Shown piece after piece: positions 4,527-63,899 of a DNA stretch of 64,000 nt. Both the position numbers and the translations under genes were made by a program. Position 1 is the first letter of the stretch. Every line of letters starts with the position of its first letter. The notes under the pieces are model-generated. The model saw only the letters and a program-made list of their open reading frames with translations, did no database searches and was not told the origin of the DNA. The stretch covers positions 1 to 64,000 of the forward strand of contig NZ_JABIOQ010000060.1 in assembly GCF_018698455.1 (NCBI RefSeq), read 5' to 3'. The stretch comes from Sulfurimonas sp. (lineage in GTDB: Bacteria > Campylobacterota > Campylobacteria > Campylobacterales > Sulfurimonadaceae).

Positions 4527-5528
4527 TTGTCTACAGCAATCTCAAACAAGATAAATCATATCTTTAAATTAATGATAATGCTTGTTAATGATAAAGAATT
4601 ATATCCACAAGATACAAATCTTCAAAACGAGTTAGAAATAAGTGAAAGAACTTTAAGAAGATACCTTGAAAATATATATAAATTATTTAGTCATATTGTG
4701 CTTATTGAGAAAGTCAAAAAAGATGATGTAAATAGACGTATTGATGTATACAGATGTTCAAATAAAGATCAAGATAATATACATATATTAAAATACTTTG
4801 CAAACAACACTTCTGATATTACTTGGGTTATGCAATTGGCCCTTGAAAACAATCCTACTCTACTAGAAAACTTGTCAAAAACTGAACAAAATTCTATTAA
4901 GTCTACTATTAACCAAGATACAGATACTATTGAATTTGTCACAAGGCCTTTTGAAAAATTCAGTATAGAACAGCAAAGTATATTTAATGCACTGAAATTT
5001 GCAGTAAAAAATCATGAGTATAAAAATATAGCATACAAGTATGAAGAACTTGAAGAGCTCCTTGATGTAAAATGCTTGAAAATTCTGTTTATTTCTAATA
5101 ATTGGTACTTAGCTATTGAAGCAAAAAACAATATCCATAGATTGCTAAGAATTTCATTTATCCAAGAAATTTCATATTCTAAAAAATCTAATTATCAAAA
5201 GAGTGTTCTGAATAAATATAACCAGTATTACCGAAAAATACAAAACCCATTTACCCAGTATAATGTCAAGGCTCAAATAGCAATATTACAGGTATCACAT
5301 AGTCGTGCAAAATACTTTAAGTCAAATATGAAAAAGTTTTTCCCATCTCAAAGATATATAGATGAAGATAAAGATGGAAATATTAAGATATCAATAGAAT
5401 ATACACAACCAATAGAGATATTGCCATTTATCAAGCAATGGTTACCACATATAACTATTATTGAACCAGAATATTTAAAGATTGAGTTAAAAAAAGAATT
5501 AACTGAAGCTATACATGATTTAGACTAA
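4527..5528 (+). CDS. WYL-domain transcriptional regulator
   Basis: A 333-residue regulator. An N-terminal winged helix-turn-helix is seen in LEISERTLRRYLENI (residues 36-50). A WYL domain with the literal motif NNWYLAIEAK lies at 191-200, followed by RLLRISFIQEI, and a C-terminal WCX-like part occupies roughly 245-330. The start is TTG, chosen because AAAGGA lies 6 bases upstream and no better ATG precedes the HTH. WYL regulators of the BrxR/CapW type commonly repress phage-defence operons and are thought to sense nucleic-acid ligands. The divergent position and the two palindromes fit that role for the AAA/PLD/helicase operon, but the regulated target is inferred. Confidence 0.82.
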   Translation: MSTAISNKINHIFKLMIMLVNDKELYPQDTNLQNELEISERTLRRYLENIYKLFSHIVLIEKVKKDDVNRRIDVYRCSNKDQDNIHILKYFANNTSDITWVMQLALENNPTLLENLSKTEQNSIKSTINQDTDTIEFVTRPFEKFSIEQQSIFNALKFAVKNHEYKNIAYKYEELEELLDVKCLKILFISNNWYLAIEAKNNIHRLLRISFIQEISYSKKSNYQKSVLNKYNQYYRKIQNPFTQYNVKAQIAILQVSHSRAKYFKSNMKKFFPSQRYIDEDKDGNIKISIEYTQPIEILPFIKQWLPHITIIEPEYLKIELKKELTEAIHDLD

Positions 5529-58647: not shown

Positions 58648-59388
58648 CTATAATCTTTGCAGTAACTCTTCAACACATTTTTTATAGTCTTTCATACCTT
58701 TTGAGCGTTTAGCATCTAATATTATAGGGGAACCTGACTCAAACTGTTTAGCCAATTTTATGTCAACACCAATCGGAGACAAGAGTTTTTCTCCTCCAAA
58801 AGATGTTTTAACCTTAAGAAGAGACTCTTTGTGTTCATTTATATGAGGATTAAACATAACTGGTAGTATTGATATATCTGCTATCTCTCTATCTAGTTTC
58901 TTAGAAGTTTGGTACACAGCACGGAGCATCTGTCCAACGGCAACAACTCCTAGATGGTGTGGTACAAAAGGTATCATAACACTATCGGCAACTTCAAGAG
59001 AGTTTTTCAACAAAGCATCAAAAGTAGGTGGTGTATCTATCACACAATAATCAAAAAAATCAGCAATTTTCTCGCGTTTAAAACGATTTTTCAGTATTCC
59101 TCTTAAATCAGAGTACTCATATACATCAAATTGTGCTAGAGCAGGAGAAAGAGTTAAGTTTTCATGTACGGTAGGAATAAATGTTTCACTTAATGTGGAA
59201 CCACTAAAAATAGAGTGTACTCCAAGTCTTTCGTCTGGTTCACAACCAACACCTATCGAAGCATGTCCTTGTGTATCTAAGTCAAGGAGAAGAACTGATC
59301 CATGCTTCGCAAGACCACTTGCAATGTTTACAGCTGTTGTTGTTTTAGCTGAACCACCTTTTCTGTTACTAATTACAATAGTTTTCAC
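58648..59388 (-). CDS. ParA-family ATPase, chemotaxis cluster type
   Basis: A 246-residue ParA/MinD-like ATPase. The deviant Walker A is RKGGSAKTTTAVN, with the signature Lys. DLDTQGHASIG and CVIDTPPTFDALL are the A' and B motifs. No partner ParB or parS is nearby. ParA proteins inside chemotaxis operons (ParC, PpfA) place chemoreceptor arrays at the pole or midcell, so that is the most likely role here. The start overlaps the STAS-like gene by 20 bases. Confidence 0.87.
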   Translation of the reverse strand: MKTIVISNRKGGSAKTTTAVNIASGLAKHGSVLLLDLDTQGHASIGVGCEPDERLGVHSIFSGSTLSETFIPTVHENLTLSPALAQFDVYEYSDLRGILKNRFKREKIADFFDYCVIDTPPTFDALLKNSLEVADSVMIPFVPHHLGVVAVGQMLRAVYQTSKKLDREIADISILPVMFNPHINEHKESLLKVKTSFGGEKLLSPIGVDIKLAKQFESGSPIILDAKRSKGMKDYKKCVEELLQRL

Positions 59389-59638
59389 TAGTATTAAATC
59401 CTTTTAAAACTGTCTCATATAATTTCTTTTTTTCACCGAACTTATAAGAACAACTATAGTTTTTCCTATACGCCATAATGAGTTGTAAAATTGCCAAATG
59501 TATATCATCACAATCTTTAAATGAAAATTTAATTTCTTCTCCAGCTTTTTCTTGTAAAAAATCCCTAAATGGAACAACTTCATCTTCATATATAACAGAT
59601 GTAAAGTTTGCTTTATTTTTTTCATATGTAATTGGCAT
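59369..59638 (-). CDS. STAS-like small protein
   Basis: An 89-residue protein. The segment FSFKDCDDIHLAILQLIMAYRK matches the central strand and helix of STAS domains (DLSxVxxIDxxGLQLLLAL-type), but the phospho-acceptor Ser/Thr position is not Ser, so it would not be switched like SpoIIAA. STAS-like genes occur in several proteobacterial chemotaxis operons between cheW and cheA-type genes. It is placed 10 bases after the CheW-CZB gene and overlaps parA. Confidence 0.55.
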   Translation of the reverse strand: MPITYEKNKANFTSVIYEDEVVPFRDFLQEKAGEEIKFSFKDCDDIHLAILQLIMAYRKNYSCSYKFGEKKKLYETVLKGFNTSENYCN

Positions 59639-59648
59639 ATACTATCCT

Positions 59649-60413
59649 TTAACTTGGTTGTTTAACTGTTTTAATAACATTAATTAAAACACCATCTAAA
59701 TCTAAGACACCAGAAAGTTCTAAAAAGTTGTTTACACTGTGTTCTTCAGAAGTATTTATAAACTGACTCTCCTCAACATGTGCTATATCTTCTATTGTAT
59801 CTACTTTAACAGCAAAAATTTCACTATTTTTATCATATATAATAAGTTTTTGAAGGGAATTAGCGACTAAGTCTAATTCTAGCACAAAAGTATCTAATGC
59901 TCCCATTGTATTTCTATAGGCAGTCATTACATCCTTATTCAAAAAGTCTAATGCTTCAGTAGGATTTTTCGCATAAATATCTAGAGCAGTTGCACCTAAT
60001 ACATGGAGTTGTTTATGGTAGTCAAGTAATTCATTGAGAACAAGCACAACACTATCATCATAGGCAGTAAAAGAATCTATCCACTTACCAAGTTCACATG
60101 CATGGGGATTAAGTGTTTCTTTAAAGTCCATACCTGTTTCTAAACTATTTTTAAGTGCTCCAAGCCATTCTTTATGAGTATCTTTAAGTCTAACAAATAA
60201 TGTTCTGAGCTCACTATCATAAGGGTCTAAAGTTATAAGTTTTCTAAAGTTTACAACTTTTATAACTTTATCTTCATATGACATCATACCATCTATATAT
60301 TCATGTGCATTAGGAATCACCGTTAATACTGTTGACTGAATAATACGTTGTACGTTTTCTATATCCACAGCATATTTATTTGTTCCAACACTAAATACTA
60401 TTAAGTCTATCAT
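59649..60413 (-). CDS. CheW coupling protein split by a CZB zinc domain
   Basis: A 254-residue protein. Residues 1-70 are the first half of a CheW domain (LIVFSVGTNKYAVDIENVQRI, then YEDKVIKVVNFRKLI). About residues 72-185 are a CZB domain, with HKEWLGAL, the hallmark HACELGKWI, and DYHKQLH. The likely zinc ligands are H80, C106, H133 and H137. The rest is the second CheW half (KLIIYDKNSEIFAVKVDTIEDI). CheW links receptors to CheA; a zinc domain in its middle could gate coupling by zinc or by oxidants such as hypochlorite. It lies 12 bases after cheA. No ordinary CheW is in view. Confidence 0.85.
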   Translation of the reverse strand: MIDLIVFSVGTNKYAVDIENVQRIIQSTVLTVIPNAHEYIDGMMSYEDKVIKVVNFRKLITLDPYDSELRTLFVRLKDTHKEWLGALKNSLETGMDFKETLNPHACELGKWIDSFTAYDDSVVLVLNELLDYHKQLHVLGATALDIYAKNPTEALDFLNKDVMTAYRNTMGALDTFVLELDLVANSLQKLIIYDKNSEIFAVKVDTIEDIAHVEESQFINTSEEHSVNNFLELSGVLDLDGVLINVIKTVKQPS

Positions 60414-60425
60414 AATTTTACTTCC

Positions 60426-63125
60426 TTATGCTACTTGAATTTCTTCTTTTAATTTTTGAGATATCCCTAAAAGTCCTAGTGGATCTATAGCCATAATGAT
60501 TTGTCCATTTCCAAGTAAAGCAGTTCCGCTAAATAGTGGATGTCCTTCCATTATACCTACAAGTGGTTTTTGAACAACATCTAATTGTCCTAGAAATTGA
60601 TTTACAACTACTGCAAGAAGATTATCTTTTATATTTAAAACAACGATAGATAGTGGTTTATCTTGCATATCATCTTCATTAAGCATAGACTTAATGAAAA
60701 GAAGAGGAATTACATCTCCTCTAATATAAATAAATGGCTCATTGTGTAAGTACTCAATTTCAGAACGCTCTAGTTTTACTGTCTCAGATACACTATCCAT
60801 CGGTATACCATAATGAATACTATTCATCTGGATGTGAAGTAAAGATGTAACTGCTAAAGACATCGGTATAGCTAAAGTAATAACCGTCCCTTGATTAGCT
60901 TTTGTCGTAATCCCTATCGTTCCACCAAAACCTTCTATAGATTTTTTAACAACATCCATTCCAACACCACGTCCACTAAACTCAGTAATAGCATCAGCAG
61001 TTGAGAGACCTGGGAGAAGGACAAGTTCTGCCATCTCTTTTTCATTTAATAGATCAATTTGATCAACAGTCATAAGACCTTTTTCTATAACTTTACTTGC
61101 TACTTTGTCAACATTGATGCCGGCACCATCATCTTTAATTTCAATTATAATTCTATCTGATTGAGAAAAAGCATTTAACGAAACAGAACCTTGAGGGTTC
61201 TTTCCTTTTTGTTCACGAACATCTGGTGTTTCAATACCATGGTCAAGTGAATTTCGTACAATGTGAATCATTGGATCAGCTAGCATCTCAATCATATTTT
61301 TATCAAGTTTAGTTTCCCCACCATTCATTTCTAGTTTTACATTTTTATCTAAAGTTTTTGCTATGTCTCGAACAAGTTTCGGGTATCTATCAAATACATA
61401 AGATATAGGAAGCATTCTCATTCCCATAATCAAGTCTTGCAGTTGCTCAGAAAGACGATTTATGAAAATATATTTATCCATAATCTCACGCTTTATCTGT
61501 TCATGTGTCATACCAACAACATTATCAGCTAAATATGGTAACGAGTTTTTTGCAACCAAAAGTTCTCCAACAACATTCATTAAGCTGTCAATAGATTCTT
61601 GATCAATTTTTACAGTTTTACCAACAACAGCTTTTTTCTCTTCTGTAACTACTGGTTTCATATTAGCTTTCTTAGAAACAACCTGTACACTTTCTACTTT
61701 TACTGTTTCTATAACCGGTTGAGCTATTTTTTGTTTTGGTGCAACCACAATTTTTTCCTTCGCTTCAAGTAAAACTTCTTTCTTAATTTCTGAAGTTTCT
61801 TTTAAAGTATCTCTATTTAAAAATTCCTCAACATCACTCTGGAAATTAAATACAGGCATAGTTGGAACAAACTTTCTTACTTTTTCTAGAATTACTATAA
61901 TTCTTTTAAGGTCATCTTCTGTATTCGTATGCTGTAAGGCTTTTTTCTGCTGTGCATAGATATCTTCAATTGTACTTTGTATTTCTGGATTTATAACAAC
62001 ACTACTTGATTGAATAGATTCACTTTGAATTTGAACTTCTTCTTTTTTTATTTCTTTTTCCGTATATGCTTCACCCATATAAAGTGTCTCAAAGAAACCT
62101 TCAAGTTTAGAAGCTTCATTGGCATCTATTAAACCAACAATATCTAAGAATCTTTCTAGCTTCGCATACTGAATAGTATCAATACCTACAAGTTCCATAG
62201 AACTTTTCACTTCTTCTTTAATAGCAGATAAATCGAGAGCAGTAGTTAAGCCACTTAGCTCTTTTAAAGAGTCAATCTGTAAACCTGTATCTCCTCTATT
62301 TAAAGACATAAGAGAACTTACATCAAGAGGTAAAAATGTAAGTTCATCTATGAAGTTAAAAAGAGACTCTTCTATCTCTTCATAAGTTGCATATATAAAT
62401 GCAACTAATGAAGATTTAAGTAATAGTCCTTCTTCATCTTCCGTGCCGCTAAGAACTGATTTAGCATTCTCACCACTCATACATGAAAATACACCTATTA
62501 CTTTATCGCCTAAAAGACTCAAAGCATATATTGGATCATTTCCATAAACCATACAACTATCATCGACATCAAATACTACTGCATAAAGATGTTCTTTAGA
62601 ACAAAAATCTTCATCAATCTCTGAATTTCTAAATGGTATTTCAACTGTATCCATGCCTCGTAAAGTAGCCAAAGGAAGATTAATTATATCATTTTTATCA
62701 GAGACTAAGTTAAAAGGCAGACTCCATATTGCTTCACCCTCAACATCTTTACCCATTTGGTTACTTAATTCTTCTACTATTTTAGTTACCCTACTTTCAT
62801 CAGCATCAACAACATCACCTGTTTCTTCCGCTGCTTCTATTAAATTTACTACTTCATCAAAAGCATCATAGAGTGCTTCTACCATAGTATCTTTAAACTC
62901 TACTTTTCCAGCACGCAACATATCTAATAAATCTTCAGCATGGTGTGTGATTTTTTTTACAGATTCAAAACAAACAATACCACTACCACCCTTTAAGGTA
63001 TGTGCAGCACGAAATACAGAATTAAGTAATTCCGGGTCATCTCCACCTATGTCACCTATATTTTGATCGATAAAAGCTAGATTTTCTCTAGCTTCACTTA
63101 AAAATTGTTCTAATAACGGATCCAT
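60426..63125 (-). CDS. cheA: Chemotaxis histidine kinase CheA, atypical middle
   Basis: An 899-residue kinase. The P1 Hpt domain has phospho-His H42 in RAAHTLKGGSG. The dimerisation domain (about 510-570) and ATP-binding domain follow, with N box HIVRNSLDHGIE, G1 DDGAGI and G2 SGRGVGMDVV. A CheW-like P5 domain (about 745-890) ends the protein, with no C-terminal receiver. The stretch 160-500 is far longer than the usual P2 and matches nothing I recognise; it includes MVYGNDPIYALSLLGD and many Ser/Glu/Lys repeats. It would phosphorylate the adjacent CheY. Confidence 0.93.
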   Translation of the reverse strand: MDPLLEQFLSEARENLAFIDQNIGDIGGDDPELLNSVFRAAHTLKGGSGIVCFESVKKITHHAEDLLDMLRAGKVEFKDTMVEALYDAFDEVVNLIEAAEETGDVVDADESRVTKIVEELSNQMGKDVEGEAIWSLPFNLVSDKNDIINLPLATLRGMDTVEIPFRNSEIDEDFCSKEHLYAVVFDVDDSCMVYGNDPIYALSLLGDKVIGVFSCMSGENAKSVLSGTEDEEGLLLKSSLVAFIYATYEEIEESLFNFIDELTFLPLDVSSLMSLNRGDTGLQIDSLKELSGLTTALDLSAIKEEVKSSMELVGIDTIQYAKLERFLDIVGLIDANEASKLEGFFETLYMGEAYTEKEIKKEEVQIQSESIQSSSVVINPEIQSTIEDIYAQQKKALQHTNTEDDLKRIIVILEKVRKFVPTMPVFNFQSDVEEFLNRDTLKETSEIKKEVLLEAKEKIVVAPKQKIAQPVIETVKVESVQVVSKKANMKPVVTEEKKAVVGKTVKIDQESIDSLMNVVGELLVAKNSLPYLADNVVGMTHEQIKREIMDKYIFINRLSEQLQDLIMGMRMLPISYVFDRYPKLVRDIAKTLDKNVKLEMNGGETKLDKNMIEMLADPMIHIVRNSLDHGIETPDVREQKGKNPQGSVSLNAFSQSDRIIIEIKDDGAGINVDKVASKVIEKGLMTVDQIDLLNEKEMAELVLLPGLSTADAITEFSGRGVGMDVVKKSIEGFGGTIGITTKANQGTVITLAIPMSLAVTSLLHIQMNSIHYGIPMDSVSETVKLERSEIEYLHNEPFIYIRGDVIPLLFIKSMLNEDDMQDKPLSIVVLNIKDNLLAVVVNQFLGQLDVVQKPLVGIMEGHPLFSGTALLGNGQIIMAIDPLGLLGISQKLKEEIQVA

Positions 63126-63134
63126 AATATCTCC

Positions 63135-63500
63135 TTAATTTTTCACAAAAATATCTAAATATGCCTGAATCTGATCAGGTTTAATTGGCTTAGTTTCAAA
63201 AAGATTTGCACCAGCTTTATAAGCATTTATTTTATCTTCTTCTTTTTCTTGTGTTGTCACCATAATCACTGGTACTATTTTGTGGTTATCTTGTTTACGT
63301 AAATCTTTTATAAAAGAATATCCATCCATAATAGGCATATTTACATCCACTAAGTACAGATCTATTTGGGCACCTAAACTTTTTTCTAATGCTTCCATTC
63401 CATTTTCAGCTTCAACTAAATCCATACCCATTGACTTAAGTATAGAACCATGGTAACTTCTTACTGTCTTTGAATCATCTACAACCATTACTGTCGGCAT
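63135..63500 (-). CDS. CheY-like single-domain response regulator
   Basis: A 121-residue receiver protein with MVVDDSKTVRS, phospho-acceptor D52 in YLVDVNMPIMD, switch residue Thr in MVTTQEKEED and Lys in FETKPIKP. It has no output domain, as in CheY. The start lies 9 bases after the CheZ-like gene and the stop 9 bases before cheA. Whether it binds FliM or serves another output is not visible. Confidence 0.92.
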   Translation of the reverse strand: MPTVMVVDDSKTVRSYHGSILKSMGMDLVEAENGMEALEKSLGAQIDLYLVDVNMPIMDGYSFIKDLRKQDNHKIVPVIMVTTQEKEEDKINAYKAGANLFETKPIKPDQIQAYLDIFVKN

Positions 63501-63509
63501 AATATTCTC

Positions 63510-63899
63510 CTAAAAAAAATCTATTTCGTCATTTACATAATCTTCGGCAATTTTACCGAAGAATCTGCTCTTTTTGTCTTTTGCATCTTCAAGAGTTGCA
63601 TTAAGTTTTTCTCTCAACTTTAGTAAACTATTCTCAGCTAAACCTTCTTGATTTTTATTTGCATGAGAAAATATATCTATACTATTTTTCATACTCTCAA
63701 TCGCTTCTCTTGTCGCATTTAACTGCTGCGATATTATATCTTGATACTGCAGCTGTTGCGAGGTTTTCATCAATCTCAATCTCATTATTTCTATCACAGA
63801 ACTCATTTTCATAAAAGATTCAGCCGACAGTTCTATAACATCTGCTTGAACTCCTTGGTTATGTGTTAGAAGTTCATCAATAGAATCTAATACAATCAT
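63510..63899 (-). CDS. CheZ-like phosphatase
   Basis: A 129-residue helical protein. QYQDIISQQLNATREAI contains D54 and Q58 with the same D-x3-Q spacing as the CheZ active site (DLTGQ in E. coli). The last residues DYVNDEIDFF resemble the CheY-binding tail that ends CheZ. It is only about 60% of E. coli CheZ length, matching a single long hairpin plus tail. It would dephosphorylate CheY-P. Its neighbours are cheY and cheA. I recognise no exact family, so the call is a motif inference. Confidence 0.6.
   Translation of the reverse strand: MIVLDSIDELLTHNQGVQADVIELSAESFMKMSSVIEIMRLRLMKTSQQLQYQDIISQQLNATREAIESMKNSIDIFSHANKNQEGLAENSLLKLREKLNATLEDAKDKKSRFFGKIAEDYVNDEIDFF

Follow-up and report, generated by a model that had tools for sequence, protein, structure and literature searches.

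A CheW protein predicted to carry a CZB domain between its two subdomains in a putative F9-class chemosensory operon of Sulfurimonas

The operon and the cheW-CZB gene

The DNA analyzed here (the window) is a 64,000-nucleotide stretch, positions 1 to 64000 of contig C9 of a Sulfurimonas-like MAG, and its end holds part of a chemosensory operon. Read on past the window, the operon has the order PAS protein (142 aa), DosM, CheW3, CheB, HEAT, CheR, and CheY, followed by a 129-aa protein, CheY, CheA, CheW-CZB, an 89-aa protein, ParA, and a response regulator. DosM (631 aa) contains two tandem MCPsignal stretches and no further Pfam domain, which leaves it with no recognized sensor. CheW3 (461 aa; C9 66828-68213, about 2.8 kb past the window end) contains three CheW stretches. 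Within the window, all on the minus strand, lie the genes for the 129-aa helical protein (63510 to 63899), a CheY-like response regulator assigned by Pfam (63135 to 63500), CheA with Pfam Hpt, H-kinase_dim, HATPase_c, and CheW/P5 domains (60426 to 63125), CheW-CZB (59649 to 60413), the 89-aa open reading frame (59369 to 59638), and the ParA-like ATPase (58648 to 59388; Pfam AAA_31). The 129-aa protein, whose synteny is conserved, has a CheZ-like LQYQDIISQQ motif by eye and no credible family match in Pfam or NCBIfam. The 89-aa protein between cheW-CZB and parA appears STAS-like by eye; it had no NCBIfam match, and its L032 ortholog had no Pfam match. Both small proteins are conserved in the F9 operon.

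DosM and CheW3 define the F9 class in the available text of PMC9321776, and since both are encoded in the operon, it is classified from its gene content as an F9-class cytoplasmic chemosensory system, from which we infer that Sulfurimonas has F9 arrays. The DosM, CheW3, CheA, CheB, CheR, and CheY set is that of the F9 class as represented by Vibrio cholerae cluster I, but the operon differs from the F9 text available from PMC7534058 and PMC9321776 in encoding one more CheW protein, with one CheW domain, directly after cheA, whether or not that protein includes a CZB. As a side observation, two Sulfurimonas F9 operons encode a protein of about 340 aa in place of the upstream dosM, cheW3, and cheB (L116 7047-8078 and L117 7231-8250), and the L116 copy had no Pfam match. 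In L094, one of two F9 operons without dosM, cheW3, and cheB, a CheW-domain protein is encoded downstream of cheW-CZB.

The cheW-CZB gene starts with ATG 13 nt downstream of cheA and encodes 254 aa, on which both Pfam CheW (PF01584; E = 1.4e-17, 64 bits against a curated cutoff of 23.5) and Pfam CZB (PF13682; E = 8.9e-10, 39.2 bits against 29.4) score above threshold. PDB CheW sequences align in two blocks, at residues 3 to 69 and then 186 to 248, which indicates that the CheW domain is truly interrupted by the insert; where TtCheW has a loop of 8 residues, lying between its residues 72 and 81, the Sulfurimonas protein has about 120. An AlphaFold model built with 52 homologs (mean pLDDT, 91.8; pTM, 0.80) has five beta strands (residues 2 to 55), helices (65 to 187), and six beta strands (189 to 250). 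Together with the PDB CheW alignment, the model places CheW subdomain 1, with its five strands, at residues 1 to 64 (60222 to 60413, minus strand) and subdomain 2, with its six strands, at residues 188 to 254 plus the stop codon (59649 to 59852, minus strand), with the inserted helical bundle at residues ~65 to 187 (59853 to 60221, minus strand). In Foldseek searches, the full chain matched CheW structures with a best E value of 6.2e-8 and TMt of up to 0.78, the two-barrel CheW fold being recovered in 2qdl, 2ch4, and 6s1k (TMt, 0.70 to 0.78), and the bundle matched the DgcZ CZB domain 3t9o (TMt, 0.79 to 0.80; rmsd, 2.3 to 2.6). An earlier sequence-only reading had described the gene as a CheW split by a CZB and had suggested modeling it. 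The hidden Markov models, the high-confidence model, in which the CZB helices lie between the CheW halves, and the solved CheW and DgcZ-CZB structures agree with that description, and we regard the protein as confirmed, at the level of sequence and model, to be a CheW with a complete CZB bundle nested between its two subdomains.

The same reading had proposed that this might be the only coupling protein of the operon, which is incorrect here, as the triple-CheW protein CheW3 is encoded in the same operon and the genome contains 12 CheW domains. Of four CZB matches genome-wide, the other three share an open frame with MCP domains and are CZB chemoreceptors; these three receptors and the PAS protein of the operon mean that other inputs exist.

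Conservation of the CheW core and the putative zinc ligands

Ortholog counts are based on 45 complete operon copies, in each of which the F9 cheA precedes the gene. Thirty-three copies have the insert (25 with the full HCHH ligand set and 8 with at least one ligand replaced), and 12 have no CZB. The position directly after cheA is shared by all 45 copies, and binding to CheA-P5 and to receptor tips is putative. In Escherichia coli CheW, a Glu38-Arg62 salt bridge holds the receptor and kinase sites in alignment, and an R62A mutant still binds both partners while chemotaxis is impaired (PMC3828127). In the Sulfurimonas protein the charges are reversed, with R23 (60345 to 60347, minus strand) at the Glu38 position and E47 (60273 to 60275, minus strand) at the Arg62 position, and this arrangement is found in 45/45 operon orthologs, with or without a CZB. 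It was found in no CheW domain compared outside this 45-member family: the corresponding residues are E/R in the CheW-CZB proteins of L089 and L090, E/K in those of L084 to L088, and E/R in the remaining CheW domains of the window's genome, except domain 1 of CheW3, which has neither residue. E/R also occupies these positions in nearly every further CheW domain in the alignment. The swap is a single ancestral event rather than 45 independent ones. If the bridge is preserved, both charges are expected to have switched together, as they have, and the CheW function of the operon orthologs thus seems, from these residues, to be retained. However, in the operon CheW the canonical CheW motif NLRG has given way to SYE(D/E/G), which counts against the reading favored below.

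The four putative zinc ligands that the sequence-only reading had placed within the CheW fold are all present in the translated open reading frame and form a complete 3His/1Cys set in the same order as in DgcZ. Among the 33 CZB-bearing operon orthologs, H80 (60174 to 60176) is conserved in 27, C106 (60096 to 60098) in 31, H133 (60015 to 60017) in 31, and H137 (60003 to 60005) in 28, all encoded on the minus strand. C106, which is also the putative redox cysteine, belongs to the sequence CELGKWI, the local form of the C-x-L-G motif, and residues L108, G109, W111, and F115 are invariant (33/33). This conservation across the 33 orthologs excludes a chance origin of the ligand set. The full set is kept in 25 of the 33 operon orthologs and in all seven distant CheW-CZB proteins.

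Optional CZB at one locus and its distant relatives

The gene had a match in 51 of 135 Sulfurimonas genomes in the genus scan and in 10 of 397 genomes (3 of 68 genera) in a sample of the phylum. The 12 CZB-less CheW proteins at the same locus have 142 to 153 aa, and examples occur with the upstream operon intact, among them G319 and G333, both of which are single-contig genomes of 100% completeness. With 12 of 45 orthologs lacking the CZB at the same locus and 8 of 45 carrying damaged ligands, the CZB is an optional add-on; for the same reason, it cannot be essential to coupling, and any sensing by it is not universal.

In a tree built from the CheW core and the CheA C terminus, with the insert columns excluded, at least four changes of CZB presence, three of them forced by strong branches, and four of ligand state are required. 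The closest neighbor of the CZB-less copy L033 in the tree is a copy with the CZB (sister relationship, support of 100/99), and at positions 4730 to 4800 L033 retains the end of the last CZB helix (SELDLVSDSL), where a tandem duplication of 15 bp marks the junction. In L032, among other relatives, the CZB is flanked by a GAGTTAGAT-like repeat. The nested tree position and the leftover helix end with its duplication indicate that L033 apparently lost its entire CZB by an in-frame deletion and does not represent the ancestral state. L079, also CZB-less, is likewise nested with support of 100/99. For the nine-member CZB-less clade, whose direction of change is not fixed by the tree, loss is favored by the outgroup pair L089 and L090, both of which have the CZB. 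CZB proteins are encoded elsewhere in 22/22 sampled genomes, whatever the CZB state of the CheW, so replacement of a lost CZB by other CZB proteins was set aside as an uninformative idea.

The repeated presence changes, the four losses of ligands, and the remnant left by the L033 deletion would all be expected of a decaying passenger domain, an old insertion under weak selection that is being lost with little effect on signaling. Divergence of the insert relative to the core points the same way, being 1.3 to 2.8 in sister pairs with a ligand-broken member versus 0.8 to 1.5 in intact pairs. However, relative-rate triplets revealed no faster insert evolution on the specific lineages that lost ligands, so lineage-specific acceleration after ligand loss was rejected in favor of faster change across the clade, and the divergence pattern is read as clade-wide relaxation, not as a clean test of zinc function. 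Moreover, most sampled lineages, including that of the window, keep all ligands and the four invariant residues. A decaying passenger is rated improbable.

Several orthologs that lost ligands still have the bundle, with YCHY, YSHY, CSHH, and YCFY among the variants, which suggests that the fold may matter without zinc, and the DgcZ CZB is a homodimer according to the available text of PMC8262984. The insert might therefore be a structural or dimerizing element, a zinc-stabilized bundle that spaces or cross-links CheW in the F9 baseplate without sensing. Against this explanation, the C-x-L-G-x-W core and the complete ligand set are kept in 25 of 33 orthologs, and the whole domain has disappeared from 12 orthologs with an intact operon, which indicates that the array does not require it as a structural element; we consider the explanation unlikely but worth weighing.

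The gene neighborhood raises another alternative. parA lies two genes downstream of cheW-CZB, and in Vibrio the CheW-like ParP tethers arrays to the ParA-like ParC (available text of PMC5706961), so that the CheW part could dock in the array while the insert connects that part with the neighboring ParA-like ATPase. However, a Methylosinus F9-like operon has ParA after cheA with no single-CheW gene between them, and in L033 parA follows a CZB-less CheW. ParA thus tracks neither the cheW-CZB gene nor its CZB, and such a localization adaptor is very improbable.

The search for the same architecture that the sequence-only reading had recommended recovered CheW-CZB proteins in other Sulfurimonas genomes and in two other Campylobacterota families. 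The scan of genome contigs gave matches only in Sulfurimonas, and the CheW-CZB comparison covers the Campylobacterota. The two representatives of the other families, L089 and L090, have the order cheA, dosM, cheW-CZB, cheB, cheR, and cheY. No CheW3 was found in these F9-like operons (L089 3453-6132; L090 5029-7719), in which CheW-CZB takes the place of CheW3 beside the double-domain receptor and is the only CheW seen. Judged from these gene sets, the idea of an only coupling protein holds for these relatives. The AlphaFold model of the L089 protein has the identical nested topology (pLDDT, 89.3). A further group (L084 to L088, other Sulfurimonas) has the HCHH set with an additional CxxC and was absent from the genome of the window. 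In three cases the gene is an orphan that lies directly after a thioredoxin-fold gene (L085 4778-5900, L086 4651-5780, and L088 4110-5259, the last given on the minus strand), the CxxC following the cysteine of the CZB, and in L085 a CZB chemoreceptor gene follows it directly. These contexts favor a probable redox role for CheW-CZB proteins generally rather than for the window's own gene. In L087, a glutathione peroxidase gene adjoins CheW-CZB. Two plasmid matches were rejected as distant CheW-CZB proteins, that of Methylosinus being a triple CheW and that of Deferribacter a CheW without a CZB. No relatives were found on viral contigs.

A possible zinc or redox input to the F9 array

CheW-CZB proteins make up 1.4% of 10,140 CZB sequences and are commonest in Clostridia (Perkins et al. 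2021, available text of PMC8262984), and they are named among known architectures in PMC10653840. No functional study of a CheW-CZB protein was found in the literature searched, and the text of PMC8262984 available on this subgroup does not say in which class of operon its genes lie, where the CZB is inserted, or what the proteins do. The Sulfurimonas protein resembles the subgroup as described there in combining CheW and CZB in one chain, in its 3His/1Cys and C-x-L-G-x-W motifs, and in having a non-Arg residue at motif position 2. It differs from that account in its campylobacterotal origin, its F9 operon, the nesting of the CZB between the two halves of CheW, and the repeated loss of that domain. 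With DgcZ, a diguanylate cyclase (3t9o), and the Helicobacter pylori receptor TlpD, it shares the CZB fold, the four ligands, and their spacing, but in those proteins the CZB is terminal and has a GGDEF or MCP domain as its target, whereas here both CZB ends are tied to CheW. Treponema denticola CheWS likewise passes a signal into the array through a sensor domain added to CheW, as proposed here for CheW-CZB, but its domain is a SAM-binding, CheR-like C-terminal fusion rather than an insertion and involves no zinc (PMC10653840). CheW-CZB of Sulfurimonas is therefore a plausible variation on a known protein type and not a new kind of system. Its placement in an F9 operon, the site at which the CZB interrupts CheW, the natural series of intact, broken, and deleted versions at a single locus, and the charge-swapped salt bridge appear to be new.

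According to the available text of PMC8262984, CZB domains bind zinc tightly, HOCl oxidizes the zinc cysteine and thereby shifts zinc occupancy and flexibility, and this cysteine mediates HOCl sensing by the CZBs of TlpD and DgcZ. For CheW-CZB, we infer that it binds zinc, senses oxidants, is built into the array, and controls CheA. The CheW part would most likely sit in the baseplate beside CheW3 and CheA-P5, and the CZB part would bind zinc through H80, C106, H133, and H137. Zinc withdrawal or cysteine oxidation could then change the packing of the CZB. Since the bundle is joined at both ends to the hinge that separates the two halves of CheW, a change of this kind could alter the geometry of receptor and kinase and with it CheA activity. 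The result would be an intracellular zinc or redox signal for an array whose receptor has no recognized sensor, and it is plausible, as the sequence-only reading had suggested, that the whole array would respond to zinc or oxidants. We give about even chances to this reading, in which a CheW of the F9 DosM/CheW3/CheA array carries a CZB in its intersubdomain loop as a zinc or redox input controlling CheA.

A sensing role is supported by the related CheW-CZB genes that adjoin dosM in two other families, in operons without CheW3, and by the related orphan genes directly after a thioredoxin gene. In addition, 98% of DosM proteins have no sensor domain, and F9 arrays must for this reason recruit further sensory proteins, according to the available text of PMC9321776. 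Because the DosM of this operon has no recognizable sensor, CheW-CZB itself may feed the signal in, and it is a good candidate for the extra input that F9 arrays are said to need. A broader suggestion, which we make tentatively and regard as possible rather than probable, is that the coupling protein and not the receptor provides the F9 sensory input and that lineages turn this input on or off as they retain, damage, or lose the insert.

No signal is known for F9 arrays, and DosM, the receptor that serves as their scaffold, is almost always sensorless, so a zinc or oxidant sensor built into the coupling protein is a concrete, testable candidate for their input. The locus in close relatives offers ready-made natural controls in its intact, ligand-broken, and CZB-deleted versions. 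If the proposed role is true, signals can enter the array via CheW, bypassing the receptors.
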